DNA of 64,000 nucleotides from Lamellibrachia satsuma (lineage: Eukaryota > Annelida > Polychaeta > Sabellida > Siboglinidae). Shown here one piece after another: positions 354-64,000 of this stretch (within the stretch, counting starts at the first letter, position 1; each line of letters begins with the position of its first letter). A program made the translations under genes and the position numbers. Under the pieces are notes generated by a model that had not been told where the DNA came from, made no database searches, and worked only from the letters and a program-made list of their open reading frames with translations. The stretch covers positions 8,603,501 through 8,667,500 of the forward strand of contig BSQZ01000025.1 in the NCBI GenBank assembly GCA_033239005.1. The letters run 5' to 3'.

Positions 354-626
354 CTGTGTTGATGTCCAGTGGTTCACTGCTCTGTACAATGGTTGGTTGG
401 TCAGAGCCAGTGTTGTAGCGGAGCTGGAGCTGACCATGGTGGAGCGACACAGAGAGGAAGTCACTGGTTCTAGAGCTCAAGTGTTCAGCCAGATAGAGGA
501 TTAGGCCTGACACAACGGTCGGCTTTACCTCAATAGCTATGGTAACGCTGTAGTGAATATTGCGTGGCGGCTCCAGCCCCATGTACGACGACTCTCCTTG
601 GAAAGAAGCATCGCTGATTGTAATAT
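354..626 (-). CDS. EYS: Exon 23: LamG4, first part (3' neighbour outside window)
   Basis: Acceptor CTACATTTGCAG, donor AACACAG|GTGGAT. It encodes [18 protein letters not shown], a strand [38 protein letters not shown] and [10 protein letters not shown]. The block is strongly LamG-like and closely resembles, from memory, the fourth or fifth LamG of vertebrate EYS. The rest of the domain and the stop codon are beyond position 1. Confidence 0.87.
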
Positions 627-3600
627 CTGCAAATGTAGACAGCAATATTCAGCAGTTTGGAGTATGGATTGAGCAGATAACAATCAAGATGAAATGGCAC
701 TCACTACATGCCTTTATAGGACACAGTTTAGTATATCTGTCAACTGTATACATTACATGACAAGATGGAGACACCCTGGTCACAGTTGATGCCAGCCTTA
801 CTGAGTGGACACTAGAGACACTTACCCTGGTCACAGTTGATGCCAGCCTTACTGAGTGGACACTAGAGACACTTACCCTGGTCACAGTTGATGCCAGCCT
901 TACTGAGTGGACACTAGAGACACTAACCCTGGTCACAGTTGATGCCAGCCTTGCCAAGTGCACACTGACACTTGTAGCCACCCTCTAACTGGGGTGAACA
1001 CCGGGAACCAGGGGCGCACAGGTTGGTCAATGGGCTGTCACAAGGGGTGGTTCTGTCAGCACAGAGCTGTCCCATCCACCCCACCTGACAGTCACATCTG
1101 TCAACAGAACCAAAGTCGTCATTCAGTTGAAGTCATGAGGGCAACACATCTACTCGCTGTCCAACACATCTACTTGCTGTCCAACACATCTACTCACTGT
1201 CCAACACATTTACTCACTATCCAACACATCTACTCGCTGTCCAACACATCTGCTCACTGTCCAAAACATCTACTCACTGTCCAACACATCTATTCGCTGT
1301 CCAACACATCTACTCACTGTCCAACACATCGTCTCGCTGTCCAACACATCTACTCACTGTCCAACACATCTTCTCGCTGTCCAACACATCTATCCGCTGT
1401 CCAACACCTTTACCCGCTGTCCAACACATCTACTCGCTGTCCAATCAGCAATGACCGAGAAGAATATGTGACAACCACTAATCATCATCATTGTGCGTAA
1501 GTTTTACTGACACGCTCTCTCATTGTTGTTGGTGCTTCAGATGTCATACACGGCTGTTACTTGAGATGTCATACACGGCTGTTACTTGAGATCTCATACA
1601 CGGCTGTTACTTGAGATCTCATACACGGCTGTTACTTTCAACACCATCGCTGGTTGTAGGGTGTTTTTACACAGCCACTATTACAGCTGTCCATAAAGAC
1701 TATGGTCAGTGCGTCCATGACAGGTTACACATTTACCCCCTGTGTGGGATCTTTTATTTTACCTGGCATAAACACCAGGGACTAACAGCTTTCGGTCTCA
1801 TCCGAAAGACACAGGCAAAATGGGGTGAATGAAAAAGTTTCCAAACGGCCGTATGTTGACTTGACCCCCATCCTCTGGACTGAGAGTCCAGCACTCTAAC
1901 TGCAGAGCCAACACGCCCCATGAACAAACTCAAATAAACCACCCACCTGTACGATGCACCCATATCAACACAGGTGGCGCCATTGTAGCAGCTGTGAACT
2001 TCACACTCTGACCTTTGACACTGTTGAATGTTGCGCCCTGACTGCACTTTGCCCAGAGGTGACCAGCGGCTGTAGCGCCCCGCTCGCACTTTCACGTCAA
2101 ATATACACCCTGACAAAAGGGTGTAAATGCAGACAATAGAATGGGGATACATCAGGCAGACACACACACAAGTGGAATGGCAGACCATTATAAAATGTGA
2201 TGGAGTTGCTCTGTCTGACACATTTCATACCTACCTGTGAAACCAGAGGTGAAGTCGAGATCATTAGGAAGTAAGTCAAGGTCAAATGTGTCATGGCCGC
2301 CGATGTAGAATTCTGAGAAGACATTCAGGCCAAACAGTTGACCAGGCGACTGGTCAGACACATTACGTTGCCTGTCCACTTGGAGCCAGCCATGTTGTCG
2401 ATAGCGACCAAGGTGTACAGAGTGGACAGTGGTCTGTGCATCTACTGGATGGTCACTTTGTATCATTGTCATCCCTGAGTAAGCAGCAAATAGTTAACTG
2501 TCATCAGAATAGTGCAAGATTCTTCAGAGGAGTTTCAATGAACATCTGAAGCCATGGCTTATATATAGGTGTTTGTCACAGAGGTCAACTGTTTGTCACC
2601 AAGGTCAAATGTTTGTCACAGCTAGAGATCATTTATTTATCACCTAGGGAAAATATTTGTTCAAATATATGCTATCAAGACATATTCGGGCTAGATTAAT
2701 TAAGACAGAATTTTAGTTGTGTCTATGAAAAGTGATTAATTTTATTAACATCAGAAACAGGAATACAGGATAAGACAAACATAAGTACTGAATTAAAAGA
2801 AAATGTATGCATTAAGTTCTACTTAGTTTCATATCCATTTACAAGAAACCCACAATTATATGTTATAATTATAAAAATGTAATCATTCATAATCCACATC
2901 ATACAGCATCTCAACAGCAAAGAAAGGTGAAAGATAGCACAACAGCCTTTCACAAATAATAATAAATAATGTTTACATAAAAGCGGAAGTGAGTTGATAG
3001 CTTTAAAGAACAGACTACCTGATCCAAGGTCATACTGGAAGGTCAGATGGCCCTCTGTCAGCCCAACAGCGATGTAGTCTGCTCCGTCACTTGGTTGACC
3101 TACAAAAAGATCTAACAACGGTTAACAAGATAAATACCCAGATGGCAACTAAGTGGACAGGGAAGCCATATTGGCTCATACAGAGTCCAACAATTCTTCA
3201 TATGTATGCAACCTGCCTATGTTAGGGGTAGCCCCTCCCTGTGAGGGGTAGACTCTCTGTTAGGGCTAGCCCCTCCCTGTGATGGGTAGCCCCTCCCTGT
3301 GAGGGGTAGACTCCCTGTGAGGGCTAGCCCCTTCCTGTGAGGGGTAGACTCTCTGTGAGGGCTAGCCCCTCCCTGTGAGGGGTAGACTCTCTGTGAGGGC
3401 TAGCCCCTCCCTGTGAGGGGTAGACTCTCTGTGAGGGCTAGCCCCTCCCTGTAAGGGGTAGACTCTCTGTGAGGGCTAGCCCCTCCCTGTGAGGGGTAGA
3501 CTCTCTGTGAGGGCTAGCCCCTTCCTGTGAGGGGTAGACTCTCTGTTAGGGCTAGCCCCTTCCTGTGAGGGGTAGACTCTCTGTTAGGGCTAGCCCCTTC

Positions 3601-6225: not shown

Positions 6226-6266
<41 letters not shown>

Positions 6267-8710: not shown

Positions 8711-8746
<36 letters not shown>

Positions 8747-8772
8747 TGTATGTATGTATGTATGTATGTATG

Positions 8773-8804
<32 letters not shown>

Positions 8805-8820
8805 ACCGATAGAGAACAAA

Positions 8821-8854
<34 letters not shown>

Positions 8855-56800: not shown

Positions 56801-59800
56801 CACTGTGGTAGAGACACGTCATCAAGGTGCACTGTGCAGAACAGTGTAAACAATAGTTGTGAGAGAGACATGTCATCAAGGTGCACAGTGTAGAACAGTG
56901 TAAACAATAGCTGTGAGAGAGACATGTCATCAAGGTGCACCGTGTAAGACAGCGTAGGCAGTAGCTGTGAGAGAGACATGTCATCAAGGTGCACTGTGGG
57001 AGAGACACGTCATCAAGGTGCACAGTGTAGAACAGTGTAAACAATAGCTGTGAGAGAGACATGTCATCAAGGTGCACTGTGTAGAACAGTGTAAACAATA
57101 GCTGTGAGAGAGACATGTCATCAAGGTGCACCGTGTAAGACAGCGTAGGCAGTAGCTGTGAGAGAGACATGTCATCAAGGTGCACTGTGGGAGAGACATG
57201 TCATCAAGGTGCACAGTGTAGAACAGCGTAGGCAGTAGCTGTGGGAGAGACATGTCATCAAGGTGCACTGTGTAGAACAGTGTAAACAATAGCTGTGAGA
57301 GAGACATGTCATCAAGGTGCACAGTGTAGGACAGCGTAGGCAGTAGCTGTGGGAGAGACATGTCGTCAAGGTGCACTGTGTAGAACAGTGTAAACAATAG
57401 CTGTGAGAGAGACATGTCATCAAGGTGCACAGTGTAGGACAGCGTAGGCAGTAGCTGTTGGAGAGACATGTCGTCAAGGTGCACTGTGTAGAACAGTGTA
57501 AACAATAGCTGTGGGAGAGACATGTCATCAAGGTGCACTGTGAGAGAGACATGTCATCAAGGTGCACTGTGTAGAACAGTGTAAACAATAGCTGTGAGAG
57601 AGACATGTCATCAAGGTGCACAGTGTAGAACAGTGTAAACAATAGCTGTGAGAGAGACATGTCATCAAGGTGCACAGTGTAGAACAGTGTAAACAATAGC
57701 TGTGGGAGAGACATGTCATGAAGGTGCACAGTGTAGGACAGCGTAGGCAGTAGCTGTGGGAGAGACATGTCATCAAGGTGCACTGTGTAGAACAGTGTAA
57801 ACAATAGCTGTGAGAGAGACATGTCATCAAGGTGCACTGTGTAGAACAGTGTAAACAATAGCTGTGAGAGAGACATGTCATCAAGGTGCACAGTGTAGGA
57901 CAGCGTAGGCAGTAGCTGTGGGAGAGACATGTCATCAAGGTGCACTGTGTAGAACAGTGTAAACAATAGCTGTGAGAGAGACATGTCATCAAGGTGCACA
58001 GTGTAGAACAGCGTAGGCAGTAGCTGTGGGAGAGACATGTCATCAAAGTGCACTGTGAGAGAGACATGTCATCAAGGTGCACTGTGTAGAACAGTGTAAA
58101 CAATAGCTGTGAGAGAGACATGTCATCAAGGTGCACAGTGTAGAACAGCGTAGGAAGTAGCTGTGGGAGAGACACGTCATCAAGGTGCACTGTGTAGAAC
58201 AGTGTAAACAATAGCTGTGAGAGAGACATGTTATCAAGGTGCACAGTGTGGAACAGTGTAAACAATAGCTGTGAGAGAGACATGTTATCAAGGTGCACAG
58301 TGTAGAACAGTGTAAACAATAGCTGTGAGAGAGACATGTCATCAAGGTGCACTGTGTAGAACAGTGTAAACAATAGCTGTGAGAGAGACATGTTATCAAG
58401 GTGCACCGTGTAGGACAGCGTAGGCAGTAGCTGTGGGAGAGACATGTCATCAAGGTGCACTGTGTAGAACAGTGTAAACAATAGCTGTGAGAGAGACATG
58501 TTATCAAGGTGCACTGTGTAGAACAGTGTAAACAATAGCTGTGAGAGAGACATGTCATCAAGGTGCACTGTGTAGAACAGTGTAAACAATAGCTGTGAGA
58601 GAGACATGTCATCAAGGTGCACTGTGTAGAACAGTGTAAACAATAGCTGTGAGAGAGACATGTTATCAAGGTGCACCGTGTAGGACAGCGTAGGCAGTAG
58701 CTGTGGGAGAGACATGTCATCAAGGTGCACTGTGTAGAACAGTGTAAACAATAGCTGTGAGAGAGACATGTCATCAAGGTGCACAATGTAGGACAGCGTA
58801 GGCAGTAGCTGTGGGAGAGACATGTCATCAAGGTGCACTGTGTAGGACAGCGTAGGCAGTAGCTGTGGGAGAGACATGTCATCAAGGTGCACTGTGTAGA
58901 ACAGTGTAAACAATAGCTGTGAGAGAGACATGTCATCAAGGTGCACTGTGTAGGACAGCGTAGGCAGTAGCTGTGGGAGAGACACGTCATCAAGGTGTAG
59001 GACAGCGTAGGCAGTAGCTGTGGGAGAGACACGTCATCAAGGTGTAGGACAGCGTAGGCAGTAGCTGTGGGAGAGACACGTCATCAAGGTGCACTGTGTA
59101 GAACAGTGTAAACAATAGCTGTGAGAGAGACATGTTATCAAGGTGCACCGTGTAGGACAGCGTAGGCAGTAGCTGTGGGAGAGACATGTCATCAAGGTGC
59201 ACTGTGTAGGACAGCGTAGGCAGTAGCTGTGGGAGAGACACGTCATCAAGGTGCACAGTGTAGGACAACGTAGACAGTATCACCTAAACTGTAGGCGTTG
59301 AATGATTCGACAAAGGAATGTGGTATTTCTTATCCAGGGTGAGTGGCCCTAACCCTCCCCCATCTGACCCCCTTCAGTTCCCCCGTCAGTGATCTCAATA
59401 ACCCCTCTGAAGCCTTCATAATATATGAGATGTCACACCCACTCTGGTCTAACTACAAACACAAGTTAATGTTGCTCTACATCAGTCCTTATGTCCTGCT
59501 GACCTTCCGTGTCTATATGTCTTACCTTCCCTGTCTACATGTCTTACCTTCCCTGTCTACATGTCTTACCTTCCCTGTCTACAGGTCTTACCTTCCCTGT
59601 CTACACGTCTTACCTTCCCTGTCTACAGGTCTTACCTTCCCTGTCTACAGGTCTTACCTTCCCTGTCTACAGGTTTTACCTTCCGTGTCTACATGTCTTA
59701 CCTTCCATGTCTACATGTCTTACCTTCCCTGTCTACATGTCTTACCTTCCGTGTCTACAGGTCTTACCTTCCGTGTCTACAGGTTTTACCTTCCGTGTCT

Positions 59801-62800
59801 ACATGTCTTACCTTCCATGTCTACATGTCTTACCTTCCCTGTCTACATGTCTTACCTTCCGTGTCTACAGGTCTTACCTTCCCTGTCTACATGTCTTACC
59901 TTCCCTGTCTACATGTCTTACCTTCCCTGTCTACAGGTCTTACCTTCCCTGTCTACATGTCTTACCTTCCGTGTCTACAGGTCTTACCTTCCCTGTCTAC
60001 ATGTCTTACCTTCCCTGTCTACATGTCTTACCTTCCCTGTCTACAGGTCTTACCTTCCGTGTCTACAAGTCTTACCTTCCCTGTCTACATGTCTTACCTT
60101 CCCTGTCTACATGTCTTACCTTCCCTGTCTACAGGTCTTACCTTCCCTGTCTACATGGACTGGACAGGCACTCATCAATGTCGATGTGGCAGTTCACACC
60201 CGTGTATCCATGGCGACAGTAGCAGATGTAGCTGGCGATGTCATCCCTGCAGATAGCATTGTTCTGACATGGCTGAGACCGACACTCATCTAGCTCTGTC
60301 TCACACAGCACACCTACAAGATTGACAAACCCTAATGAAAAAAACACTTACAAGATTGACCAACACTGAGGACACAGAACACCTACAAGATTGACAAACA
60401 CTGAGGACACAGAACACCTACAAGATTGACAAACACTGAGGACACAGAACACCAACAATACTGACAAACACTGAGGACACAGAACACCTACAAAGTGACA
60501 CACACTGAGGACACAGAACACCAACAATATTGACAAACACTGAGGACACAGAACACCTACAAGATTGACAAACACTGAGGACACAGAACACTTACAAGAT
60601 TGACAAACACTGAGGACACAGAACACCTACAAGATTGACAAACACTGAGGACATAGAACACCTACAAGATTGACAAACACTGTGGACACAGAACACCTAT
60701 AATATTGACAAACACTGAAGACACAGAACACCTACAAGATTGACAAACACTGAGGACACAGAACACCTACAAGATTGACAAACACTGAGGATGCAGAACA
60801 ACTACAAGACTGACAAACACTGAGGACGCGGAACACCTACACGACTGACAAACAGTGAGGACACAGAACACCTGCAAACACCAACACACATGCAAGTTTA
60901 ACCAAGAAATAAATAATAATAAAATGTCATGTTTTAAGAAGCCAACCATGCCATTATAATCCTGGCCAGAATCAATTAAGTACCAACTAAGTTGTCATCC
61001 ACTTAATGCAATAACAAGATGAGTTTCTTCTTGTGGTCATAGTTTGTAATGGCACTGACCAGATTAACAAGATGAGTTTCTTCCTGTGGTAATAGTTTGT
61101 AATGGCACTGACAATATTAACAAGACGAGTTTCTTCCTGTGGTCATAGTTTGTAATGGCACTGACCAGATTAACAAGACGAGTTTCTTCCTGTGGTCATA
61201 GTTTGTAATGGCACTGACCAGATTAACAAGACGAGTTTATTCCTGTGGTCATAGTTTGTAATGGCACTGACCATATTAACAAGATGAGTTTCTTCCTGTG
61301 GTCACAGTTTGTAATGGCACTGACCAGATTAACAAGAAGAGTTTCTTCCTGTGGTCACAGTTTGTAATGGCACTGACAAGATTAACAAGATGAGTTTCTT
61401 CCTGTGGTCACAGTTTGTAATGGCACTGACCAGATTAACAAGATGAGTTTCTTCCTGTGGTCATAGTTTGTAATGGCACTGACCAGATTAACAAGACGAG
61501 TTTCTTCCTGTGGTCATAGTTTGTAATGGCACTGACCAGATTAACAAGACGAGTTTATTCCTGTGGTCATAGTTTGTAATGGCACTGACCAGATTAACAA
61601 GACGAGTTTCTTCCTGTGGTCATAGTTTGTAATGGCACTGACCAGATTAACAAGATGAGTTTCTTCCTGTGGTCACAATTTGTAATGGCACTGACCAGAT
61701 TAACAAGATGAGTTTCTTCCTGTGGTCACATTTTGTAATGGCACTGACCTCACACGAGGATCAGTTCAATAGCAGTCATCAGAGTCCATGAACCTCACAC
61801 AAGGATCAGTTCGATAGCAGTCATCAGAGTCCATGAACCTCACACAAGGATCAGTTCAATAGCAGTCATCAGAGTCCATGAACTTCACACGAGGATCAGT
61901 TCAATAGCAGTCATCAGAGACCATGAATCTCACACAAGGATCAGTTCAATAGCAGTCATCAGAGTACATGAACCTCACACGAGGATCAGTTCAATAGCAG
62001 TCATCAGAGTCCATGAACTTCACACGAGGATCAGTTCAATAGCAGTCATCAGAGTCCATGAACCTCACACGAGGATCAGTTCAATAGCAGTCATCAGTCA
62101 AGTAATAACCACACATTACAATACATGGAAAGCATTGAGACAGTAGGAATCACAGCCACCTGGAGACCACGACGTACCTTTATAGCCAGCGGGACACAAA
62201 CAGCTGAATGAAGACACTCCATTGACACAGGTGGCGCCACTGGGACAGGGGGAGCTGAGACATTCATCAATGTCATCGGAACAATTTACTCCAGCAAAAC
62301 CTGCAGTACAGTTGCACAGATACCTGTGAAGAGCAAGGAACAAGGAAAACTCATGAAATGCTCTTTAACACCACCACTTTTACACAAATCTGAAAGATCT
62401 ACAACTTCCTTGGATTCATTCAATTATTTTTAATAGCATTATGAATTAGACTGTTCTGTTTATTTATACACTGCACACTTTAAAATGAAAAACTCAATGT
62501 ATAAAAGAAAATAATAAATAAGTGCTCAATTAGTTTTGAAAAAACATTTTGTAAAAAAATAACATCAGAGGTAATATTTGAAAGACTGTTTATGAGGACT
62601 CATTGACCTCACTCATTGACAAGGTAATATTTGAAAGACTGTTTATGAGGACTCATTGACCTCACTCATTGACAAGGTAATATTTGAAAGACTGTTTATG
62701 AGGACTCATTGACCTCACCCATTGACAAGGTAATATTTTAAAGACTGTTTATGAGGAGTGTCCTCACCCATTGACAAGGTCAAGGCAGGTGGCATTGTTC

Positions 62801-62975
62801 TGACAGACATCGCCAGCGCAGTTGTCTACATCGACCTCACAGTCAACACCCGCGTAGCCGGGCAGACAGTGACACCTGTAGGCAGCCGCAGGCAAATCTT
62901 TGCACCTCGCTGCATGTTGACAGGGGCTGGAGAGACACTCATCAATGTCTACCTCACAATGGGGGCCTTCATAAC
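354..62975 (-). CDS. EYS: EYS-like (Eyes shut/spacemaker) extracellular EGF-LamG protein, 23 exons, both ends missing
   Basis: Seen: 23 minus-strand exons with GT-AG borders whose phases join without a break into one frame of about 1,800 residues. Module order is ten EGFs, a Ser/Thr-rich linker, EGF, LamG1, EGF, LamG2, two EGFs, LamG3, two EGFs, start of LamG4. Known: EYS has this architecture (N-terminal EGF array, low-complexity mucin-like region, C-terminal LamG modules separated by one or two EGFs) and is a secreted matrix protein needed for photoreceptor structure in flies and vertebrates. LamG4 opens with ISDASF and LamG2 is followed by a GxNIxxC motif and an EGF, as I remember from EYS. 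Alternatives are Crumbs or agrin; the mucin linker placed before all LamG modules and the lack of agrin-type Kazal modules favour EYS. The start codon, signal peptide and 3' end lie outside the window. Exons occupy about 8% of the span. Confidence 0.8.
749..927 (-). repeat. 51-bp array copying the donor junction of exon 22
   Basis: About 3.5 intronic copies. Each repeats the last 28 or so bases of exon 22 (GGCTGGCATCAACTGTGACC) followed by a donor and about 20 intron bases. The exon-attached copy has GTTAGT, while the next three have the stronger GTAAGT. Using a downstream donor would bring in an in-frame TAG. Confidence 0.9.
928..1097 (-). CDS. EYS: Exon 22: end of one EGF and a complete EGF
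   Basis: Acceptor CTGTTGACAG, donor CCAGG|GTTAGT. It encodes [12 protein letters not shown] and then [15 protein letters not shown] to GKAGINCDQ. The second EGF has five residues between cysteines 1 and 2 and a loop SPQLEGGYK. The 3' border is the first unit of a 51-bp junction array. Confidence 0.83.
1139..1445. repeat. 20-bp minisatellite, about 15 copies
   Basis: The unit is ccaacacatctactcactgt with point variants. It lies just upstream of exon 22's acceptor without covering it. Confidence 0.9.
1548..1640. repeat. 25-bp tandem repeat, about 4 copies
   Basis: The unit contains catacacggctgttacttga. It is in the intron between exons 21 and 22. Confidence 0.8.
1720..1922 (-). mobile_element. 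tRNA-derived SINE-like element
   Basis: The minus strand starts GGGGCGTGTTGGCTCTGCAG with an A-box-like region. It has a perfect 5-bp anticodon-type stem around a 7-base loop (CTGGA CTCTCAG TCCAG, anticodon position CTC, Glu-like), then a B-box-like GGGGTCAAGTC near 1862. A non-tRNA body follows with a hairpin (CCTGGTGTTTATGCCAGG). The 5' half looks like a tRNA gene but the acceptor stem is not kept, so a SINE is more likely than a functional tRNA. Confidence 0.6.
1947..2109 (-). CDS. EYS: Exon 21: end of LamG3 and start of an EGF
   Basis: Acceptor TTTTGTCAG, donor TACAG|GTGGGT. It encodes [23 protein letters not shown] (the LamG closing motif) and [12 protein letters not shown], the first cysteines of an EGF finished in exon 22 through a split AG|A Arg codon. 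Confidence 0.85.
2235..2474 (-). CDS. EYS: Exon 20: LamG3, third part
   Basis: Acceptor GCTTACTCAG, donor TTCACAG|GTAGGT. It encodes [19 protein letters not shown], then [10 protein letters not shown] (the 'lyiGG' motif), ending SGFTG so that exon 21 completes the GFTGCI motif. 240 bases, phase 1 on both sides. Confidence 0.86.
2475..3018. other. Intron 19-20, mostly unique AT-rich sequence
   Basis: Apart from two or three loose copies of a tgtttgtcac-type motif near 2568-2620, I see no coding sequence, array or element here. Confidence 0.6.
3019..3099 (-). CDS. EYS: Exon 19: LamG3, second part
   Basis: Acceptor TCTTTTTGTAG, donor GATCAG|GTAGTC, 81 bases, phase 1 on both sides. It encodes [18 protein letters not shown] and TFQYDLGSG, the LamG strand pair 'd.l.v.l.dG.l.f.ydlGsg'. 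It is separated from exon 18 by 5.2 kb containing two arrays and a LINE. Confidence 0.84.
3128..3225 (-). mobile_element. Short 3'-end fragment of the CR1-like LINE
   Basis: The segment matches 24815-24880 of the large LINE in the same orientation (shared blocks ccagatggcaa, ggacagggaagcca, gagtccaacaa). It is diverged and about 90 bp, sitting between exon 19's acceptor and the palindromic array. Confidence 0.6.
3226..4922. repeat. 38-bp minisatellite with palindromic core, about 1.7 kb
   Basis: The basic unit is about 38 bp (ctagcccctccctgtgaggg plus gtagactctctgtgaggg). Units with -gtgcct- or -gatgggtag- inserts recur in register as a higher-order pattern. Each unit holds an inverted repeat (AGCCCCTC-ccctgt-GAGGGGT type) able to form a hairpin. 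Confidence 0.92.
6225..6266. repeat. (TA)n microsatellite inside the RT core of LINE A
   Basis: About 20 TA dinucleotides sit between the PQGSILGPL and FADD motifs. In the RT frame they would read (Tyr-Ile)n before NDIE, so the run expanded from the normal YINDI codons. Confidence 0.85.
6826..7107 (+). mobile_element. 3' fragment of CR1-like LINE nested in LINE A
   Basis: The plus strand encodes [18 protein letters not shown] and [19 protein letters not shown] followed by a stop, the C-terminus of the RT protein at 24878-25975. It ends with a tail caatcttgttaaataatg. It lies antisense to the host LINE and is younger than it. Confidence 0.8.
7714..8317 (-). repeat. 43-bp array copying the donor junction of exon 18, about 14 copies
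   Basis: Each unit is about 30 bases of the end of exon 18 (ATGATCTACTCGGGCCAGAG region) plus the donor GGAG|GTGAGT and a few intron bases. The GTGAGT is kept in almost all copies. LINE A's 5' end abuts the far end. Confidence 0.92.
8318..8491 (-). CDS. EYS: Exon 18: LamG3, first part
   Basis: Acceptor TGCTGTACAG, donor GGGGAG|GTGAGT. It encodes [19 protein letters not shown], a strand [12 protein letters not shown] and [12 protein letters not shown] ('sGllly.g'), classic LamG N-terminal features. The last 30 bases plus the donor form the unit of a 43-bp array downstream. Confidence 0.85.
8500..9117. other. Intron 17-18 with TATG and TA microsatellites
   Basis: It contains (TATG)n at about 8718-8777, (TA)n at 8778-8803 and 8824-8852, and a short gtacaagtaa-type repeat at 9055-9110. 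The rest is unique AT-rich sequence with no coding signal. Confidence 0.8.
9118..9293 (-). CDS. EYS: Exon 17: end of one EGF and a complete EGF
   Basis: Acceptor TTTTTCCAG, donor TCAAG|GTGGGG. It encodes [18 protein letters not shown], closing the EGF from exon 16, then [12 protein letters not shown] to CSQ. Split codons (CG|A, G|AA) restore the frame with both neighbours. Many copies of its acceptor plus first 40 bases stand upstream; this copy is the one continuous with the intact EGF. Confidence 0.84.
9294..9835 (-). repeat. 65-bp array copying the acceptor junction of exon 17, about 8 copies
   Basis: Each unit is a 3' splice site (TGTTGTTCCAG) followed by about 40 bases of the start of exon 17, which encode a broken [17 protein letters not shown]. 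Since 65 is not a multiple of three, the EGF-like peptide reappears in each frame in turn. The copy next to 9293 is the one that continues into an intact EGF. Confidence 0.92.
9977..10076 (-). pseudogene. Degenerate duplicate of the start of exon 16 with its acceptor
   Basis: About 100 bases match 11938-12037 with roughly 10 differences. They include the acceptor and polypyrimidine region (aaacagtttaaaaccaatta on the plus strand) and the first 70 or so coding bases of exon 16. It lacks the rest of LamG2. The flanking array (from 11034) matches the array upstream of the real exon, so exon start plus array were duplicated together. Confidence 0.82.
10078..11033. mobile_element. TA-flanked element with terminal inverted repeats (mariner-like, non-autonomous)
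   Basis: The left end CCGTGTTGTTCCC and the right end (reverse) CCTTGTTGTCCCC are inverted repeats flanked by TA. Removing the element restores ccaatTAagttactgttgg, nearly identical to the uninterrupted sequence at 12030. Inside are subterminal copies of gtgcgtctatta, three copies of gtgcgagtgcgaaggc and five copies of a 19-bp gataacaatgtggtgcaat. No transposase is recognised. Confidence 0.72.
11034..11310. repeat. 31-bp minisatellite (first block)
   Basis: The unit is about 31 bp with the core gtacggccattggaaaagtt. It is the same family as 12038-12495 and 14832-14875. Confidence 0.9.
11335..11575. repeat. 57-bp tandem repeat, about 4 copies
   Basis: The unit contains caaagctgtaacatctgaat and is about 57 bp. 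It is in the intron 3' of exon 16, about 100 bases from the donor. Confidence 0.9.
11684..12016 (-). CDS. EYS: Exon 16: LamG2, last part, and start of an EGF
   Basis: Acceptor CTGTTTCAG, donor CAACG|GTCGGT (weak). It encodes [30 protein letters not shown] (LamG 'lYvGG'), [14 protein letters not shown] ('GCvr.l.v'), the RGQNIDDC closing motif and the first cysteines of an EGF ([12 protein letters not shown]). The GxNIxxC plus EGF arrangement is the one I recall from EYS. Part of this exon is duplicated at 9977-10076. Confidence 0.86.
12038..12495. repeat. 31-bp minisatellite (second block) upstream of exon 16
   Basis: About 15 copies of the same 31-bp family, starting about 20 bases upstream of exon 16's acceptor. 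It is interrupted at 12496 by the TTAA-flanked element and resumes at 14832. Confidence 0.9.
13953..14345. repeat. 43-bp minisatellite inside the TTAA element, about 9 copies
   Basis: The unit contains catcaacatggcttccacta and tgggaataatgttggcacat. The copies are almost identical, which suggests recent spread or homogenisation. Confidence 0.92.
14358..14570 (-). pseudogene. Short frame with THAP-like N-terminus
   Basis: A 70-codon minus-strand frame beginning [15 protein letters not shown]. Met-x-x-Cys-Ala-Ala-x-x-Cys-x-x-Asn is the start pattern of THAP zinc fingers (C2CH), as found in P-element transposases. The rest does not show the conserved Pro/Phe and CxxH parts. It could be the remnant of a captured first exon, or chance. 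It lies within the TTAA element. Confidence 0.35.
14832..14876. repeat. Remainder of the 31-bp array beyond the TTAA insertion
   Basis: It contains gctgagtatggccattggaa and gttactgctggcta, matching the array that stops at 12495. Confidence 0.85.
14987..15225. repeat. 23-bp minisatellite, about 10 copies
   Basis: The unit is about 23 bp with the core cagttgtctagacaaagtgt. It lies in the intron 3' of exon 15, about 100 bases from the donor. Confidence 0.9.
15328..15607 (-). CDS. EYS: Exon 15: LamG2, first part
   Basis: Acceptor TTATTTTCAG, donor ATTCA|GTAAGT. It encodes [17 protein letters not shown], the '[14 protein letters not shown]' LamG strand and a hydrophobic '[17 protein letters not shown]' segment, ending TTVNI. 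The Trp usually found where LamG domains read 'W H.V.V' is absent here. Confidence 0.83.
15789..15993 (-). CDS. EYS: Exon 14: Thr/Pro spacer and EGF between LamG1 and LamG2
   Basis: Acceptor GTCGTGTAG, donor GGAAG|GTAAAG. It encodes VNIGECG (the NIxxC tail that closes LamG1), about 20 Thr/Pro/Ser-rich residues, and an EGF from [12 protein letters not shown] to CQE. The EGF has a long loop between cysteines 3 and 4 ([14 protein letters not shown]). Confidence 0.83.
15994..16231. other. Unique part of intron 13-14
   Basis: AT-rich sequence with an acaac run. Nothing else is recognised. Confidence 0.5.
16232..18356 (-). repeat. 59-bp array copying the donor junction of exon 13, about 36 copies
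   Basis: Each unit holds about 44 bases of the end of exon 13 (TTGGAATACACAGCCACTGC onward to CTAGTTGG), the donor GTGAGT and about 9 intron bases. Most copies keep an intact donor; a few have GTGTGAGT. The intron continues with no acceptor until 15994. Confidence 0.95.
18357..18600 (-). CDS. EYS: Exon 13: LamG1, last part
   Basis: Acceptor TGATTTCAG, donor AGTTGG|GTGAGT. It encodes [15 protein letters not shown], a strand reaching [10 protein letters not shown] (the LamG 'lyiGG.p' motif) and [13 protein letters not shown] (the 'f.GCi..l' motif). It ends LHNATSW, with three potential N-glycosylation sequons in the exon. The last 44 or so bases plus the donor form the unit of a 2.1-kb array immediately downstream, so later copies could act as donors. 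Confidence 0.83.
18601..18834. other. Unique intron sequence upstream of exon 13
   Basis: AT-rich, with no frame or array seen. Confidence 0.5.
18835..20412. repeat. 74-bp minisatellite, about 20 copies, ending in a 22-23-bp subarray
   Basis: The unit contains aataagttaccaataaagcc and gtctgccagctgacagtgtc. Near 20255-20395 only the gacagtgtgtgtctgtcagct part is repeated, giving a smaller unit. Variants change in blocks along the array (gtagca then gtaaca), as expected from directional spread. Confidence 0.93.
20500..20938. repeat. 23-bp minisatellite, about 19 copies
   Basis: The unit is ttaacagtagtggtgtcatc plus three bases. Confidence 0.93.
21137..21222 (-). CDS. EYS: Exon 12: LamG1, third part
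   Basis: Acceptor ATGTTTCAG; the donor is probably GTTGT|GTCAGT, though GTT|GTGTCA one base away is possible. It encodes [13 protein letters not shown] to VFNITV. The phase-0 start joins exon 11 as GGVLK-YEFSC. The frame and hydrophobic pattern fit LamG, but the donor choice is the least certain in the model. A TAA stop lies just after the donor, so the exon must end here. Confidence 0.72.
21262..21382. repeat. 19-bp repeat (acatgatgacattataata), about 6 copies
   Basis: A short array just upstream of exon 12. It does not include its acceptor. Confidence 0.85.
21415..21815. repeat. 37-bp minisatellite, about 10 imperfect copies
   Basis: The unit is built from catgcaattaacgacagacc and aacagaccttcacat, with deletions in several copies. 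Confidence 0.88.
22002..22990. repeat. 25-bp minisatellite, about 39 copies
   Basis: The unit is about aacctgggtggacaactttg plus taaac. All frames on both strands stay open for long stretches; these are not genes. Confidence 0.93.
23083..24285. repeat. 30-bp minisatellite, about 40 copies
   Basis: The unit is about gtgtcccactgctgttacat plus tgagtcacag. Because 30 is a multiple of three it gives stop-free frames of about 400 codons on both strands, encoding only the repeat. There is no signal peptide, domain or splice context. Confidence 0.95.
24421..24777. repeat. 72-bp minisatellite, block 1 (left of the LINE)
   Basis: The unit is about 72 bp (agcatgtttgtatgttatgg, aataacattgattcacacag, ccctcctttattacatattt, then attacatatttt). 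It is cut at ttacatatttta by the LINE tail and continues at 29656. Confidence 0.92.
24878..26495 (-). pseudogene. LINE B ORF2 C-terminal part: reverse transcriptase
   Basis: Two overlapping frames joined by a frameshift near 25950. Blocks: [64 protein letters not shown] (the catalytic FADD) and [14 protein letters not shown], followed by a C-terminal region ending [15 protein letters not shown]. Endonuclease-RT order is standard for non-LTR elements. One frameshift inside the palm region makes it non-functional as it stands. Confidence 0.9.
26440..27717 (-). pseudogene. LINE B ORF2 N-terminal part: AP-type endonuclease
   Basis: 425 codons. Seen: [16 protein letters not shown] (the Asn motif), IIGITESW (the Glu motif), [34 protein letters not shown] and a C-terminal [10 protein letters not shown] (the SDH motif). 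These are the EEP endonuclease blocks. The usual GDFN reads EDFN here. The frame is lost near 26440-26495 by a frameshift before the RT. Confidence 0.88.
27740..28905 (-). pseudogene. LINE B ORF1: coiled-coil, Gly/Lys repeat and GDSL/SGNH-type hydrolase domain
   Basis: The N-terminus ([18 protein letters not shown]) looks like a short coiled coil. About six 24-residue repeats of [10 protein letters not shown] / [11 protein letters not shown] type follow. Then come [12 protein letters not shown] (GDS block), HVGTNN near 28105 (a block III-like GTNN) and DGLHLSGKG (Asp-x-x-His block) near the C-terminus. These are the SGNH hydrolase blocks known from CR1-clade ORF1 esterases. A stop or frameshift between 28156 and 28063 separates the GDS block from the rest. 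Confidence 0.8.
29656..30119. repeat. 72-bp minisatellite, block 2
   Basis: It continues the array cut by LINE B and stops at the direct repeat beginning tatgcgggacaaagctacct. Confidence 0.92.
30120..30888. repeat. About 225-bp direct repeat (A-B-A) inside the 72-bp array
   Basis: 30120-30357 and 30667-30888 are nearly the same: start atgcgggacaaagctaccta, end gtgggggaaccaaccac, with a 12-base deletion in the second. They enclose about 310 unique bases. The 72-bp array resumes directly after the second copy. No LTR-type TG...CA ends are seen, so a tandem duplication of an inserted block is the simplest reading. Confidence 0.85.
30889..32132. repeat. 72-bp minisatellite, block 3, about 17 copies
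   Basis: Same family as blocks 1 and 2. Since 72 is a multiple of three, both strands show stop-free frames of about 220 codons. One copy at 31470-31495 lacks a ttattacatattt segment. Confidence 0.93.
32133..32457. other. Unique intron stretch
   Basis: It contains a 20-bp direct repeat (aaacttaaggttttcttcca twice). No gene is seen. Confidence 0.5.
32458..32712. repeat. 30-bp minisatellite, about 8 copies
   Basis: The unit is ttgtttcaccgatccctagc plus agcctttgca. Confidence 0.93.
32785..33385. repeat. 22-bp minisatellite, about 27 copies
   Basis: The unit is ggtcatctgttgtgggccag plus ca, with tc/ta and ggg/agg variants. Confidence 0.93.
33386..35140. other. 1.7 kb of intron without recognised features
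   Basis: Unique, AT-rich, with only short frames, none resembling a known domain. Confidence 0.5.
35141..36700. repeat. 30-bp minisatellite, about 52 copies
   Basis: The unit is about gtacacaagacaggactcac plus tgagtacgct, with alternating -gcatgc- and -gtacac- variants forming higher-order pairs of 60 bp. It yields stop-free frames of 400-500 codons in several frames on both strands. The amino-acid repeats are frame artefacts. Confidence 0.95.
36929..38675. mobile_element. hAT-like DNA transposon, non-autonomous, 1.75 kb
   Basis: Flanked by a perfect 8-bp duplication ggtaaaga (36921-36928 and 38676-38683). The ends are CAGGGTTGGC and, inverted, CATGGTTGAC. An 8-bp target duplication and CAGGG-type ends are typical of hAT. 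Terminal regions are rich in tacttttacttgtaacgaag-type motifs. A 0.6-kb interior block is shared, inverted, with the element at 63213. A LINE B tail (38092-38263) is nested inside. No transposase is recognised. Confidence 0.85.
38092..38263 (+). mobile_element. LINE B 3'-end fragment nested in the hAT element
   Basis: It reads [20 protein letters not shown] then a stop, with tail cttgttaaatcttgttaaa. The other copy of the interior block (63700 region) lacks it, giving the empty site. Confidence 0.82.
38899..38991 (-). CDS. EYS: Exon 11: LamG1, second part
   Basis: Acceptor GTTCTTCAG, donor CTCAAG|GTATGT, 93 bases, phase 0 on both sides. It encodes [11 protein letters not shown] to VEGGVLK, the canonical LamG stretch in which 'dGllfY' is followed by a strand ending 'l.dG.l.'. 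The flanking introns are 4.6 kb and 17.7 kb. Confidence 0.82.
39001..39530. other. Unique intron sequence upstream of exon 11
   Basis: It includes three loosely similar blocks with attattggcc / actactggcc motifs, perhaps an old repeat. No gene is seen. Confidence 0.45.
39537..40135. repeat. 37-bp minisatellite, about 16 copies
   Basis: The unit is gaagtcatcccccaggcatt plus acgccttaagaagccat. Two variants (cacgcccc / catccccc) are intermixed. Confidence 0.94.
40150..40355 (-). mobile_element. tRNA-derived SINE-like sequence
   Basis: On the minus strand GGGGGCAACCGTGGCCTAGT is followed by GGTTAAGG (A-box-like) and GAGTTCAAGACC (B-box-like) about 45 bases on, then CACTGGTCACGGTT. The anticodon stem is poorly paired, so this is a tRNA-derived element or pseudogene rather than a working tRNA. 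Confidence 0.55.
40356..41288. other. Unique intron sequence
   Basis: Short frames only (minus-strand 63-codon frame at 40818-41009). I recognise no domain. Confidence 0.45.
41289..42460. repeat. 51-bp minisatellite, block 1, about 23 copies
   Basis: The unit is about 51 bp: gatagcttgagtgtgcatga, tatattactaattgatgtct, ccatgtagaaa. Blocks of variants repeat in order (gttagatagattgag), suggesting segmental spread. It resumes at 43239. Confidence 0.93.
42461..43238. mobile_element. pogo/Tigger-like non-autonomous DNA element, copy 1
   Basis: The left end CAGTAGTGCCTCATTATTGT and the right end, inverted, CAGTCAAGCCTCATTATAAC resemble pogo/Tigger termini (CAGT..ACCTCGTTATAAC type). It is inserted in the 51-bp array after a TA. 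The base pair after the right end is CA, so the TA duplication is imperfect. No transposase is seen. Confidence 0.75.
43239..43345. repeat. 51-bp minisatellite, block 2
   Basis: About two copies continuing the array beyond the pogo-like insertion. Confidence 0.9.
43550..43656 (-). CDS. EYS: Exon 10: LamG1, first part
   Basis: Acceptor TTGTTCTAG, donor ACACAG|GTGTGG. It encodes [16 protein letters not shown] and so on to LSLKTTQ, matching the first beta-strands of a LamG fold (hydrophobic strand, 'F..SFL.F', then a 'LSLKTT' strand). The acceptor and the first 16 or so exon bases are duplicated once in the intron. Confidence 0.8.
43641..43740 (-). repeat. Two-copy 50-bp duplication of the acceptor junction of exon 10
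   Basis: 43641-43690 and 43691-43740 are nearly identical. Each holds the acceptor (TTTTGTTCTAG) and the first 16 or so bases of exon 10 (CTGTGGAGTTTGAGAT). The copy at 43656 is continuous with the exon; the other is a potential upstream decoy acceptor. Confidence 0.9.
43922..44131 (-). CDS. EYS: Exon 9: Thr-rich spacer and EGF before LamG1
   Basis: Acceptor TTTTCCACAG, donor GACAG|GTTAGC. The first 30 or so residues continue the mucin-like composition (runs of Thr and Val), then an EGF runs [12 protein letters not shown] to CETG. The six cysteines fit the EGF spacing. The phase-1 junction with exon 8 gives WSSEHIEATT. Confidence 0.83.
44240..44975. repeat. 39-bp minisatellite, about 18 copies
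   Basis: The unit is ctgtacttaacaggatgaca plus gggatcagtactgatttgg. It lies in the intron between exons 8 and 9. Confidence 0.94.
44976..45390. other. AT-rich intron with loose ttaaactattcacata repeats
   Basis: A degenerate 18-19-bp repeat spans about 45170-45350. Nothing else is seen. Confidence 0.6.
45391..45835. repeat. 38-bp array (about 9 copies) followed by a 13-bp array
   Basis: 38-bp unit: gaacttgaagagggagtttt plus aacaggcatgggctgaac. From 45740 a short gtgatacacacca repeat follows. Confidence 0.92.
45942..47470 (-). CDS. EYS: Exon 8: EGF10 and Ser/Thr-rich mucin-like linker
   Basis: Acceptor TTTCACCAG, donor TCTTCAG|GTTTGG (a weak +3 T). The first 50 or so residues finish one EGF and encode EGF10 (DDCLPAPKC to GRNC). 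About 430 residues follow that are dominated by Ser, Thr, Ala, Val, Met and Pro with almost no cysteine, typical of a densely O-glycosylated stalk. Two coding minisatellites are visible: about three copies of a 14-residue unit ([14 protein letters not shown]) at 46335-46465, and degenerate short units rich in Ala-Thr-Met near 46640-46815. EYS proteins carry a comparable low-complexity region between the EGF array and the LamG part. Confidence 0.85.
47645..47738. repeat. 19-bp repeat (tgtacattaatgtactatg)
   Basis: About 5 copies next to a (TA)5 tract. The unit is itself palindromic (tacattaatgta). Confidence 0.88.
47826..47925 (-). CDS. EYS: Exon 7: EGF (DIDEC type), short exon
   Basis: Acceptor GTCCCTGTAG, donor TTTGA|GTATGT. 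It encodes [18 protein letters not shown] followed by QHAGHC and a Pro-rich tip (QERPPGFE). Joined to exon 8 it gives C-x4-C-x5-C-x9-C-x-C-x8-C, a complete EGF. The 100-base exon was recognised from cysteine spacing and phase. Confidence 0.82.
47926..48322. other. Unique intron 6-7
   Basis: AT-rich, no array or frame recognised. Confidence 0.5.
48323..48456 (-). CDS. EYS: Exon 6: EGF end and another EGF (NIDEC type)
   Basis: Acceptor TTTTTACCAG, donor CATCAG|GTGGCT. It encodes [10 protein letters not shown], the end of the module from exon 5, then a module opening [10 protein letters not shown] with an extended third-cysteine loop (LNQHGHVT) and ending CTCPSG. Phases are 2 in and 1 out. The 56-bp array starts about 20 bases upstream but does not contain this acceptor. 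Confidence 0.82.
48480..49245. repeat. 56-bp minisatellite, block 1, about 13 copies
   Basis: The unit is about 56 bp: catacagagacacatctccc, cctcctcccagagaggcctg, tactcaaccatg. It is interrupted by LINE C and resumes at 49745. Confidence 0.92.
49246..49744 (+). mobile_element. 3' fragment of a third LINE (retrotransposon C) in the 56-bp array
   Basis: The plus-strand frame encodes [49 protein letters not shown] and AISLLNNVK then a stop. This is the typical C-terminal region of L2/RTE-type LINE RT proteins (xxHPLxxxFxxLPSGRRFR pattern). It ends with aataaaggtata and a (ttgta)n tail. 5'-truncated. Confidence 0.8.
49745..50925. repeat. 56-59-bp minisatellite, block 2, about 20 copies
   Basis: Same family as 48480-49245, but most copies carry an extra cctc triplet and -aggcatac- in place of -atgcatac-, so the blocks on the two sides of LINE C have diverged. 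Confidence 0.92.
51060..51625. repeat. 49-bp minisatellite, about 11 copies
   Basis: The unit is gactggatgtcccctgtatt, gtggatcatgaacacaccca, gactgttaa. It ends about 70 bases from exon 5's donor and does not include it. Confidence 0.93.
51694..51799 (-). CDS. EYS: Exon 5: EGF, first four cysteines
   Basis: Acceptor TGTTCCACAG, donor CTGCAG|GTAATG. Translation runs [10 protein letters not shown] through GLNFTC, closing the previous EGF and opening a DIDIC-type module with an insertion between the first two cysteines (QGGNPRL). It joins exon 6 through a split AG|T serine codon. No long open frame marks this exon; it was found from cysteine spacing and splice signals. Confidence 0.82.
51800..52435. 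other. Intron 4-5 upstream of exon 5, with a segment shared with 62075-62125
   Basis: 52160-52250 (tccatgaat, gaggattggttcaatagcag, tcatcagtcaagtaatg) matches the last unit of the 45-bp array next to exon 2. The rest is unique AT-rich sequence. Confidence 0.75.
52440..53088. repeat. 51-bp minisatellite (tctagctttggtagcccaac), about 12 copies
   Basis: It gives a stop-free 17-residue repeat frame of 235 codons on the plus strand. No other coding evidence. Confidence 0.94.
53089..53425. other. Unique intron stretch
   Basis: Nothing recognised. Confidence 0.45.
53426..54390. mobile_element. pogo/Tigger-like element, copy 2, inverted relative to copy 1
   Basis: The right end (inverted) CAGTTGCACCTTGTTATTGC and following bases match the left end of copy 1. 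The interior block with atatctgccaccagggagct is shared in reverse. The left terminus is eroded. It shares the -gttaggcattt- and -gtgaaac- regions with copy 1. Confidence 0.75.
54525..54691 (-). CDS. EYS: Exon 4: end of EGF5 and a NINEC-type EGF
   Basis: The acceptor TCTCCCACAG at 54692 gives phase 2 and joins exon 3 as [15 protein letters not shown]. This completes an EGF with spacing C-x4-C-x4-C-x8-C-x-C-x8-C. The second possible acceptor, TTCCCAG at 54682, breaks the frame and removes a cysteine, so I reject it. The chosen acceptor is itself the first unit of the 4.6-kb array. The donor is ACAG|GTGCCG, phase 1. Known EGF folds need all six cysteines, which supports this junction. Confidence 0.82.
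54692..59278 (-). repeat. 4.6-kb array copying the acceptor junction of exon 4 (54- and 29-bp units)
   Basis: Long units (54 bp) and short units (29 bp, lacking a 25-bp tagaacagtgtaaacaatag segment) are intermixed, very roughly 90 in all. Each minus-strand unit carries GACATGTCTCTCCCACAG or CTCTCTCACAG, a polypyrimidine tract plus AG like the acceptor used by exon 4. Single-base variants (cgt/tgt, ggg/gag) occur in blocks. The frames of up to 485 codons on the minus strand are a by-product. Confidence 0.95.
59279..59500. other. Unique spacer between the donor and acceptor arrays of intron 3
   Basis: About 220 bases without repeats, the only unique sequence left inside this 5.4-kb intron. Confidence 0.8.
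59501..60141 (-). repeat. 22-bp array copying the donor junction of exon 3, about 29 copies
   Basis: The minus-strand unit is CATGTAGACAGGGAAG|GTAA followed by GA: the last 16 or so bases of exon 3 plus a full consensus donor. Nearly every copy keeps AAGGTAAG; variants are C/A and G/C in the exonic half. Stop codons TAG and TAA occur in the minus-strand unit. Confidence 0.95.
60142..60313 (-). CDS. EYS: Exon 3: one full EGF and start of the next
   Basis: Acceptor AATCTTGTAG, donor GGGAAG|GTAAGA. It encodes the last cysteine of one EGF ([10 protein letters not shown]), a complete EGF and the first two cysteines of EGF5 ([10 protein letters not shown]). The last codon is split AG|T (Ser). The exon is bounded by a 35-bp array copying its acceptor on one side and a 22-bp array copying its donor on the other, so the exact copy used in vivo should be confirmed by cDNA. 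Confidence 0.83.
60314..60870 (-). repeat. 35-bp array copying the acceptor junction of exon 3, about 15 copies
   Basis: The minus-strand unit holds TTTGTCAATCTTGTAG|GTGT and TCTGTGTCCTCAG. The exon proper begins GTGTGCTGTG and the copies read GTGTTCTGTG. The acceptor AG is kept in most copies. Confidence 0.93.
61015..61748. repeat. 53-bp minisatellite, about 14 copies
   Basis: The unit is gatgagtttcttcctgtggt, catagtttgtaatggcactg, accagattaacaa. Confidence 0.94.
61749..62100. repeat. 45-bp minisatellite, about 8 copies
   Basis: The unit is cctcacacgaggatcagttc, aatagcagtcatcagagtcc, atgaa. It abuts the previous array directly; its last copy runs into unique sequence shared with 52160-52250. 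Confidence 0.93.
62178..62323 (-). CDS. EYS: Exon 2: EGF modules (DIDEC type)
   Basis: Acceptor CTTCACAG, donor AAAG|GTACGT. It finishes the EGF begun in exon 1 ([14 protein letters not shown]) and encodes [16 protein letters not shown] through CLCPAGYKG. Phase 2 in and phase 1 out match the neighbours. Neither junction is covered by a repeat. The 45-bp array begins about 80 bases downstream. Confidence 0.85.
62324..62560. other. Unique AT-rich part of intron 1-2
   Basis: No features recognised. Confidence 0.5.
62561..62767 (-). repeat. 53-bp array copying the donor junction of exon 1, about 4 copies
   Basis: The minus-strand unit contains ACCTTGTCAATGGGTGAGG (or -GAGTGAGG), i.e. the last 14 or so bases of exon 1 plus its donor, followed by intron bases CTCATAAACAGTCTTT. 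Confidence 0.9.
62768..62975 (-). CDS. EYS: Exon 1 in window: two Ca-binding-type EGF modules
   Basis: Starts after acceptor TTTGTAG (phase 1) and ends AATGG|GTGAGG (phase 2). It encodes the end of an upstream EGF (YEGPHC), a complete EGF opening [10 protein letters not shown], and most of another opening [10 protein letters not shown]. DxDEC is the calcium-binding EGF signature. Both borders are bounded by tandem arrays that copy the border itself. At least one more EGF exon must lie upstream, beyond the window. Confidence 0.85.
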
Positions 62976-63212
62976 CTACAAACAGAGGAGAGACAGTCAT
63001 CTATGTCTACCTCACAATGGAGACTTATATAACCTACAAACAGGGAAGAGACATTCATCTATATCTACCACACAATGGAGGCTTTCATAACTTACAAACA
63101 GTGGAAAGACATTAATTTGTGTCTATCTCACAAAAGGGGCCTTCATAACGTACAAACAGAGGAGATATTCATCTGTGTCTACCTCACAATGGGAGCCTTC
63201 ATAACCTACAAA
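62976..63212 (-). repeat. 58-bp array copying the acceptor junction of exon 1, about 4 copies
   Basis: The minus-strand unit holds TCTGTTTGTAG and then about 45 bases of the start of exon 1 (CATTGTGAGGTAGACAT and ATGA.TGTCTCTCC), diverged by about 10-15%. The hAT element begins exactly where the fifth copy would read on. Confidence 0.9.
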
Positions 63213-64000
63213 CAGGGTTGGCATGTAACGAAGTAAAAGTACATGTGAGTCGTTATTTCAAGTAATTGGCATGTAACGAAGTAAAAGTACATGTGAGTAG
63301 TTATTTCAAGTAATTGGCATGTAACGAAGTAGAATTTTGACTAAATACTTTTACTTGTAACGAAGTAGTTTTATTTAAAATATCGTTATTTTTATTTACT
63401 TCGCAATATATTTTCTTGTAATGAACTTTAGTTTTTTTAAGTAACGCGACTTTTTACTCTGTTACTTTTATTTACTTCGCACTATATTTTCAATAAAATT
63501 TTTGCCGAAACCGCTGCTGCCGTGTTTGTCCATTTTACTATGGGCAGTGCTAGGTGGGTTCACACACACACCACCACCGCCGCCGCCACCACCACCACCA
63601 CCACCAGCACCACCACCACCACCTGTTCCACTGGGGTATGGGAGGAACTAGATTGTACAAGAAGATATGTATAGGCAGGTGTGATTGTATCTGAGAAGGT
63701 AGAGGGTCAGTCCAGTACTAGTAGTAGACTCTCAGGGAAAATGGTCAGAGGTAATACAACCTAGCACTGCCCATGGTAAAATTTGATGCCTAGCTGATGA
63801 AGCCATCTGGTTTGTGAACCCCCACCTTCTCATGTCTTCCCAGACATGTCTTATCAGCTCACACAAACATTGAAACAACACGCTTTAGCAGCTAGCTGTG
63901 TTGGTTACCTGGTACCAGCTGGGGCTAGAACTGATCAGAAGACAGACCAGTGCAACAGAGGAATGCTGTTGCTAATTGCAATTAAAAGTTACCTATCCAG
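63213..64000. mobile_element. hAT-like element, copy 2, running off the window edge
   Basis: It starts CAGGGTTGGC after cctacaaa. The left 300 bases match 36929-37125, with one terminal segment duplicated (catgtaacgaagtaaaagta twice). From about 63520 it carries the interior block found in reverse at 37680-38330. A (CAC)n/(CCG)n microsatellite lies at 63560-63622. Confidence 0.82.

Follow-up and report, generated by a model that had tools for sequence, protein, structure and literature searches.

We have analyzed a stretch of DNA of 64 kb (64,000 nucleotides, hereafter the window) located on contig C25 of a genome of 735 Mb in 279 contigs. Its minus strand carries an eyes-shut (EYS) gene, and at 9 of the 46 exon-intron junctions of this gene the border of the exon, splice signal included, is repeated in tandem in the adjoining intron, at intervals that are approximately multiples of the array period. 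These junctions are the donors of exons 1, 3, 13, 18, and 22 (n = 5) and the acceptors of exons 1, 3, 10, and 17 (n = 4). The arrays are probably minisatellites of the type called mirages in amphioxus, here in an annelid-like genome, i.e., ordinary minisatellite growth that has extended across junctions and is tolerated because the exon-attached copy is the one that is spliced.

The intron next to each of the 46 junctions was searched for repeats of the junction's own edge, and a fixed criterion was used for counting, whose donor half gave 0/308 matches on unrelated windows (a control that covered the donors). An earlier note, made from the letters of the window, had listed ten arrays built from junctions. 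Nine of them stand, sharing 11 or more exon bases plus the GT or AG, while the array at the exon 4 acceptor shares a single exon base and was dropped from the junction-spanning set. Measured by script at seven junctions, the exon-side shared length ranged from 11 to 53 nt; at exon 1, it was 13 nt for the donor, according to the listing of copies, and 47 nt for the acceptor, according to the overlap of the Tandem Repeats Finder (TRF) array. The arrays are the following, the slash marking the junction:

62929..63215, minus strand: 58-bp array at the exon 1 acceptor; the TRF array reaches 47 nt into the exon; 2/4 further copies keep AG
62569..62767, minus strand: 53-bp array at the exon 1 donor; 13 exon nt plus GTGAGG; 3 copies, 3/3 keeping GT (TRF range 62569-62757, extended to the exon by the alignment)
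60303..60877, minus strand: 35-bp array at the exon 3 acceptor; 11 exon nt shared; 12/16 copies keep AG
59502..60157, minus strand: 22-bp array at the exon 3 donor (GGGAAG/GTAAGA); 16 exon nt shared; 29/29 copies keep GT
54721..59279, minus strand: array abutting the exon 4 acceptor; repeats the intron end plus AG, with 1 exon nt; not counted as junction-spanning
43640..43739, minus strand: 50-bp two-copy array at the exon 10 acceptor; 17 exon nt plus 33 intron nt
16244..18406, minus strand: 59-bp array at the exon 13 donor (TTGG/GTGAGT); 50 exon nt shared; 34/35 copies keep GT
9241..9822, minus strand: 65-bp array at the exon 17 acceptor (TTCCAG/AGATGGTGTC); 53 exon nt shared; 8/8 copies keep AG
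7709..8352, minus strand: 43-bp array at the exon 18 donor (GGGGAG/GTGAGT); 35 exon nt shared; 11/14 copies keep GT
773..966, minus strand: 51-bp array at the exon 22 donor; 39 exon nt shared; the attached site is GTTAGT, and 2/3 copies have GTAAGT

Tandem arrays fill 31.8 kb of the window, i.e., half of it, in 62 merged arrays. The periods of the junction arrays range from 22 to 65 bp, as the earlier note had read them, and in a pairwise comparison of units no junction unit of the window matched another. Among 19 junction units from the window and other loci, the sole match was a 16-nt stretch shared by the exon 3 acceptor unit and a donor unit of the EYS flank. Since the unit sequences are unrelated, a recurring process has to be considered, as the earlier note had proposed, and a single spreading element was rejected.

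The EYS exons were placed from their EGF and laminin-G patterns as well as from splice signals and phase, and their numbering is valid within the window. When re-derived on the minus strand, the 23 exons were all bounded by GT/AG, agreed in phase throughout, and joined into a frame of 1798 amino acids without any stop. Pfam, applied to eight exon pieces, gave laminin-G or EGF above the cut-off in 5/8 and just below it in 1/8. The product has EGF repeats, a Ser/Thr-rich stretch, and alternating laminin-G/EGF domains, and is collinear with EYS proteins. Residues 880-1798 were used as the query of a protein search in which candidates were limited by length. Among the best 120 of 515 matches, the first was a protein of the siboglinid annelid Ridgeia piscesae (74% identity over 82% of the query), followed by a Lingula 'eyes shut-like' protein (46%) and then by many 'eyes shut homolog' proteins, whereas amphioxus EYS showed 38-39% identity over 99% of the query and another amphioxus protein 45% over 39%. 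The closest named EYS relative in this set is therefore that of an annelid, and the gene does not fit the amphioxus setting, that is, the cephalochordates to which two papers apply the mirage name. As judged from this one gene, the genome is likely to be that of an annelid, probably a siboglinid or a near relative. The Ridgeia alignment extends from inside exon 13 to exon 23 (75% identical, 5 gap columns in 757), and the upstream junctions are supported by alignment to the EYS proteins of Lingula, Tubulanus, amphioxus, and piranha. Because the exon edges fit the EYS proteins of other animals, the arrays appear to derive from the exons and not the exons from the arrays. The exons are the following:

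62768..62975, minus strand: exon 1; arrays at acceptor and donor; aligned to other EYS
62178..62323, minus strand: exon 2; junctions without array
60142..60313, minus strand: exon 3; arrays at acceptor and donor
54525..54691, minus strand: exon 4; splice ends and frame
51694..51799, minus strand: exon 5; splice ends and frame
48323..48456, minus strand: exon 6; splice ends and frame
47826..47925, minus strand: exon 7; splice ends and frame
45942..47470, minus strand: exon 8; EGF and Ser/Thr-rich mucin-like stretch, with two coding arrays inside
43922..44131, minus strand: exon 9; splice ends and frame
43550..43656, minus strand: exon 10; splice ends, frame, aligned to other EYS
38899..38991, minus strand: exon 11; splice ends and frame
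21133..21222, minus strand: exon 12; splice ends and frame
18357..18596, minus strand: exon 13; splice ends, frame, Ridgeia alignment
15789..15993, minus strand: exon 14; splice ends, frame, Ridgeia alignment
15328..15607, minus strand: exon 15; splice ends, frame, Ridgeia alignment
11684..12016, minus strand: exon 16; frame, Ridgeia alignment
9118..9293, minus strand: exon 17; splice ends, frame, Ridgeia alignment
8318..8491, minus strand: exon 18; splice ends, frame, Ridgeia alignment
3019..3099, minus strand: exon 19; splice ends, frame, Ridgeia alignment
2235..2474, minus strand: exon 20; splice ends, frame, Ridgeia alignment
1947..2109, minus strand: exon 21; splice ends, frame, Ridgeia alignment
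928..1097, minus strand: exon 22; splice ends, frame, Ridgeia alignment
354..626, minus strand: exon 23; splice ends, frame, Ridgeia alignment

The two coding arrays of the Ser/Thr-rich exon 8 (window 46344-46460 and 46652-46809) have periods divisible by three (42 and 15 bp). Array formation is thus not confined to introns, but also takes place in exons when the reading frame permits it. Intron 16 contains a displaced 107-nt copy (window 9937-10074, minus strand; 91.6% identity) of the start of exon 16 and the 24 nt of intron that precede it, in which the AG has become GG. Copies of the start of exon 1 form a second cluster in the EYS flank that lies upstream of the window, at 85169-85673 (window coordinate + 20000), some 2 kb further upstream than the exon 1 array.

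The nine window junctions have 113 copies in total, and 103/113 keep the GT or AG. When the copies were scored with matrices built from the array-free junctions of the window (18 donors and 18 acceptors), 81/113 scored at least as high as the authentic site. In exon 22, for example, the copies with GTAAGT outscore the authentic donor GTTAGT. Just 2/113 copies could be used without a frame break or a stop. The earlier note had suggested that the splice consensus survives in a special way in the copies. The pooled retention over the 113 copies does not bear this out, since the splice dinucleotide is kept in 91.2% and the neighboring dinucleotides also in 91.2%, with single arrays deviating in both directions. 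Because this pooled retention equals the rate of the neighboring bases, there is no clear sign in the pooled copies that selection either removes the strong decoys or preserves them, and selection for keeping or removing decoy sites was set aside as an explanation at that level.

The same pattern was found in other genes of the genome. By the fixed criterion, it is present in 5/36 junction rows of the EYS flanks (one row being mis-set and counted as a miss) and in 2/58 of Notch. Among the myosins, it is present in 0/16 on contig C26, 0/8 on C2, 2/10 on C18, and, after correction, 1/56 of further myosin exons. The myosin gene on C18, which we take to be class-V-like from its motor sequence, is the clearest independent case, with junction-spanning arrays at 3/14 junctions. 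A 45-bp array lies before the exon starting AIGNAKTTRNDNSSRFGKY; its units end in GTTGCAG/GCCATTGGCAATG or nearly so, the AG being kept in 6/7 of the copies listed. Before the exon starting HVFKLEQEEY lies a 101-bp array in which CTCTCACAG/CATGTCTT occurs nine times exactly, including the one attached to the exon, and a 20-bp array, which is more degenerate, follows the exon ending AEEAYKNMT. The edges of these myosin exons are fixed by the conserved motor-domain sequence.

These counts depend on several decisions. The boundaries in Notch, the flanks, and the myosins were set automatically and some are doubtful; manual correction was applied to those of three EYS-flank exons and of one Notch acceptor, and 8/37 Notch segments and 5/23 EYS-flank segments were dropped before counting as spurious or displaced copies. 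The donor of the flank exon starting at 95394 was scored as a miss though by eye an array adjoins it. Some arrays were left uncounted because their exon overlap is too short, i.e., those at the Notch donor 10781 (6 nt), the myosins on C106 (7 nt) and C67 (5 nt), and the EYS-flank acceptor 86068. Among the first 174 junctions, 21/174 were positive by eye and 18/174 by the fixed criterion, and 18 is the figure used. The count for the further myosin exons was corrected from 2/56 to 1/56 since the myosin on C36 had been placed on a decoy and its authentic donor misses the criterion. Of 77 myosin matches, 45 were examined (17 + 28), selected for compactness and not at random. Two observations were made in passing at these loci. 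The Notch locus (L038, minus strand) has two similar exons of the LNR region, at 781-1345 and 3663-4038, as if that part of the gene were duplicated. On C26 (L042), 5861678-5861774 and 5862167-5862258 are neighboring and nearly alike myosin exons covering the same motor-domain stretch, as in mutually exclusive exons.

The number of junctions carrying arrays was compared with a null model in which the founding unit of each array was dropped at random on the array-collapsed sequence; for pooled counts, the Poisson tails are approximations. In the window, the 9 junctions observed compare with 2.3 to 2.6 expected under uniform placement (P(>=9) 3.5e-4 to 8e-4), 4.6 to 5.7 when placement is confined to 500 bp from junctions (P 0.035 to 0.11), and 5.7 to 7.2 within 300 bp (P 0.10 to 0.28). 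The earlier note had left the placement of arrays to be compared with chance, and over the 230 junctions of the pooled loci the 19 observed are above the 7.2 expected uniformly (P 1.8e-4) and suggestive against the 11.8 that placement within 500 bp predicts (P 0.033). When placement was confined to 300 bp, which was done for the first 174 junctions, 12.8 were expected and 18 observed (P 0.10). Junction-spanning arrays occur at 17/96 junctions in array-dense places and at 2/134 elsewhere, a grouping made after seeing the data. Part of the window excess may thus reflect a general crowding of arrays near exons. Because the excess stands against uniform placement and shrinks near exons, a junction hotspot is only suggestive once this crowding is allowed for.

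Mirages were described in amphioxus as tandem units across exon-intron boundaries in Adh3, the globins BflGb6 and BflGb9, troponin C, and PGBD5 (PMC3087553, PMC3902484), so that the amphioxus arrays mentioned in the earlier note do exist, as far as the relevant passages of these papers go. The Adh3 units measure 10-72 bp and those of the globins about 150-160 bp (PMC3087553, PMC3902484). The acceptor-side arrays, which the earlier note had taken as an extension of the phenomenon, are not new in kind, since the available text of PMC3087553 reports an acceptor-side mirage in the globin gene BflGb6, and a figure legend there indicates that both 5' and 3' boundaries duplicate. According to the same passages, data on Adh3 and RT-PCR on the globins point to undisturbed regular splicing (PMC3087553; likewise PMC3902484). 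The window units resemble amphioxus mirages in that they span boundaries, at donors and acceptors, with many but not all copies carrying GT/AG (103/113), and differ from them in belonging to another phylum, in occupying many junctions of one gene, in being two-sided at exons 1 and 3, and in reaching up to 35 copies per junction. Moreover, splicing and length polymorphism were examined for the amphioxus mirages, whereas the arrays described here are known from the sequence of one assembly. In human segmental duplications, repeat units of about 30 bp at exon-intron boundaries were linked to 27 intron modifications, according to the section of PMC2812944 that deals with them. Those repeats accompany altered splicing and novel introns, whereas in the window the frame fits almost solely the exon-attached copy. 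No annelid report of junction-spanning arrays was found in the part of the literature that was searched. The 12 places considered, of the 16 in the Ridgeia genome paper that match the theme, make no mention of junction arrays (PMC9921365), and in the passages covered by our literature search we found no precedent for arrays at so many junctions of one gene. All this suggests that a known kind of array, the mirage, now appears in a new phylum and at an unusual density.

According to the explanation that we favor, the genome would make minisatellites freely, and when a short tandem duplication happens to cover an exon-intron boundary, the exon edge and the splice signal would be copied with it. 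Later growth of the array, by slippage or unequal exchange, would multiply both. The real junction would be the only copy attached to the exon body, the others being intronic, and growth should be harmless provided that the copy joined to the exon body is the one used in splicing. The copies would then evolve without a clear sign of selection, since splicing stays with the exon-attached copy. The intact frame of 1798 amino acids fits this explanation, though 81/113 copies match or beat the authentic site. That frame and the published amphioxus cases suggest that splicing ignores the copies, and exon definition would be a natural rule for the choice of site; presumably, about a hundred spare splice sites in one gene have to be ignored in this way. 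Several results weigh against this explanation. Some decoy sites may be used, since the splicing described here is predicted from genomic sequence. The junctions carrying arrays are in 2.6-fold excess over uniform placement (19 vs 7.2), which array growth without regard to position would leave unexplained unless arrays gather near exons for some other reason, and the excess is also seen outside the window, though weaker there (10 vs 4.9 uniform, P 0.027; 10 vs 7.2 within 500 bp, P 0.19). In addition, the equality in retention is pooled only, and weak selection may act at single arrays: the splice dinucleotide is kept less than its neighbors at the exon 1 acceptor (0.50 vs 0.84), the exon 3 acceptor (0.75 vs 0.86), and the exon 18 donor (0.79 vs 0.89), and more than its neighbors at the exon 3 donor (1.00 vs 0.88).

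The excess over uniform placement, which persists at P 0.033 within 500 bp, could mean that junctions are true hotspots of minisatellite birth, for instance owing to the splice-signal sequence, R-loops, or transcription-coupled breaks. We regard this as rather improbable. The excess is largely gone within 300 bp and is weak outside the window, and old DNA near exons as opposed to young, transposon-filled deep intron could mimic a hotspot. A bolder version, in which junctions are favored birthplaces and the spliceosome regularly picks the right site among up to 35 duplicates, many of them no weaker than the true site, by an exon-based rule (the exon body and its far end) and not by site strength, is possible but doubtful. 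The high scores of many copies would also be expected if the extra sites were used as alternative donors or acceptors, giving isoforms, as in the human gene IFI6 (6-16), where, in the text available, the minisatellite units carry a donor site and two downstream units are used as donors (PMC4526556). The window units likewise carry donor sites. Their use, however, would break the frame in nearly all copies, with 2/113 alone keeping it without a stop, and the pooled GT/AG retention is not above background, so that we consider such use unlikely.

Introns can be born when an exonic AGGT segment is duplicated in tandem, but it is very improbable that the arrays are remnants of this process. Such births are documented in fission yeast, potato, and vertebrate ATP2A1 in the part of PMC4974935 concerned with them, and birth of introns from mirages is proposed in a passage of PMC3087553; introns 2, 3, and 13 are nearly all array (89, 95, and 89%), and here too a stretch with splice signals is duplicated. 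However, the window arrays appear to have grown inside existing introns. Intron 3, with its spanning donor array and abutting acceptor array, has unrelated units at its two ends, and it is the single window intron with arrays at both junctions and hence the only one in which an origin from the same segment can be compared. An artefact, with misplaced exons or stutter of the assembly, is the least credible of these possibilities and would surprise us greatly. Tandem arrays are hard to assemble and one assembly was seen, yet the exon edges agree with the EYS of other animals, many copies differ by substitutions, and the same pattern occurs in other genes. The myosin edges also agree with the conserved motor-domain sequence.

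Studies of how a cell chooses between duplicated splice sites normally rely on duplicates constructed by hand. The nine junctions and 113 copies of the window, plus the myosin and Notch cases, offer a natural series of splice-site duplications with which choice by position or exon definition becomes testable. If the annelid placement is true, mirages occur beyond amphioxus, may arise as an ordinary by-product in any genome rich in minisatellites, and could give rise to new introns and exons. At such junctions, gene predictors and short-read aligners may err.

Two further elements were noticed in the introns of the EYS gene. Intron 11 contains, at window 24881-27744, retrotransposon reading frames with a reverse transcriptase domain, presumably of the non-LTR type, whose relatives, all from ENA contigs, are 95-98% identical among the 120 matches listed, which suggests a young and abundant family. 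Finally, one unit of 72 bp occurs in three separate arrays of a single intron, at window 24425-24779, 29658-30120, and 30888-32127.
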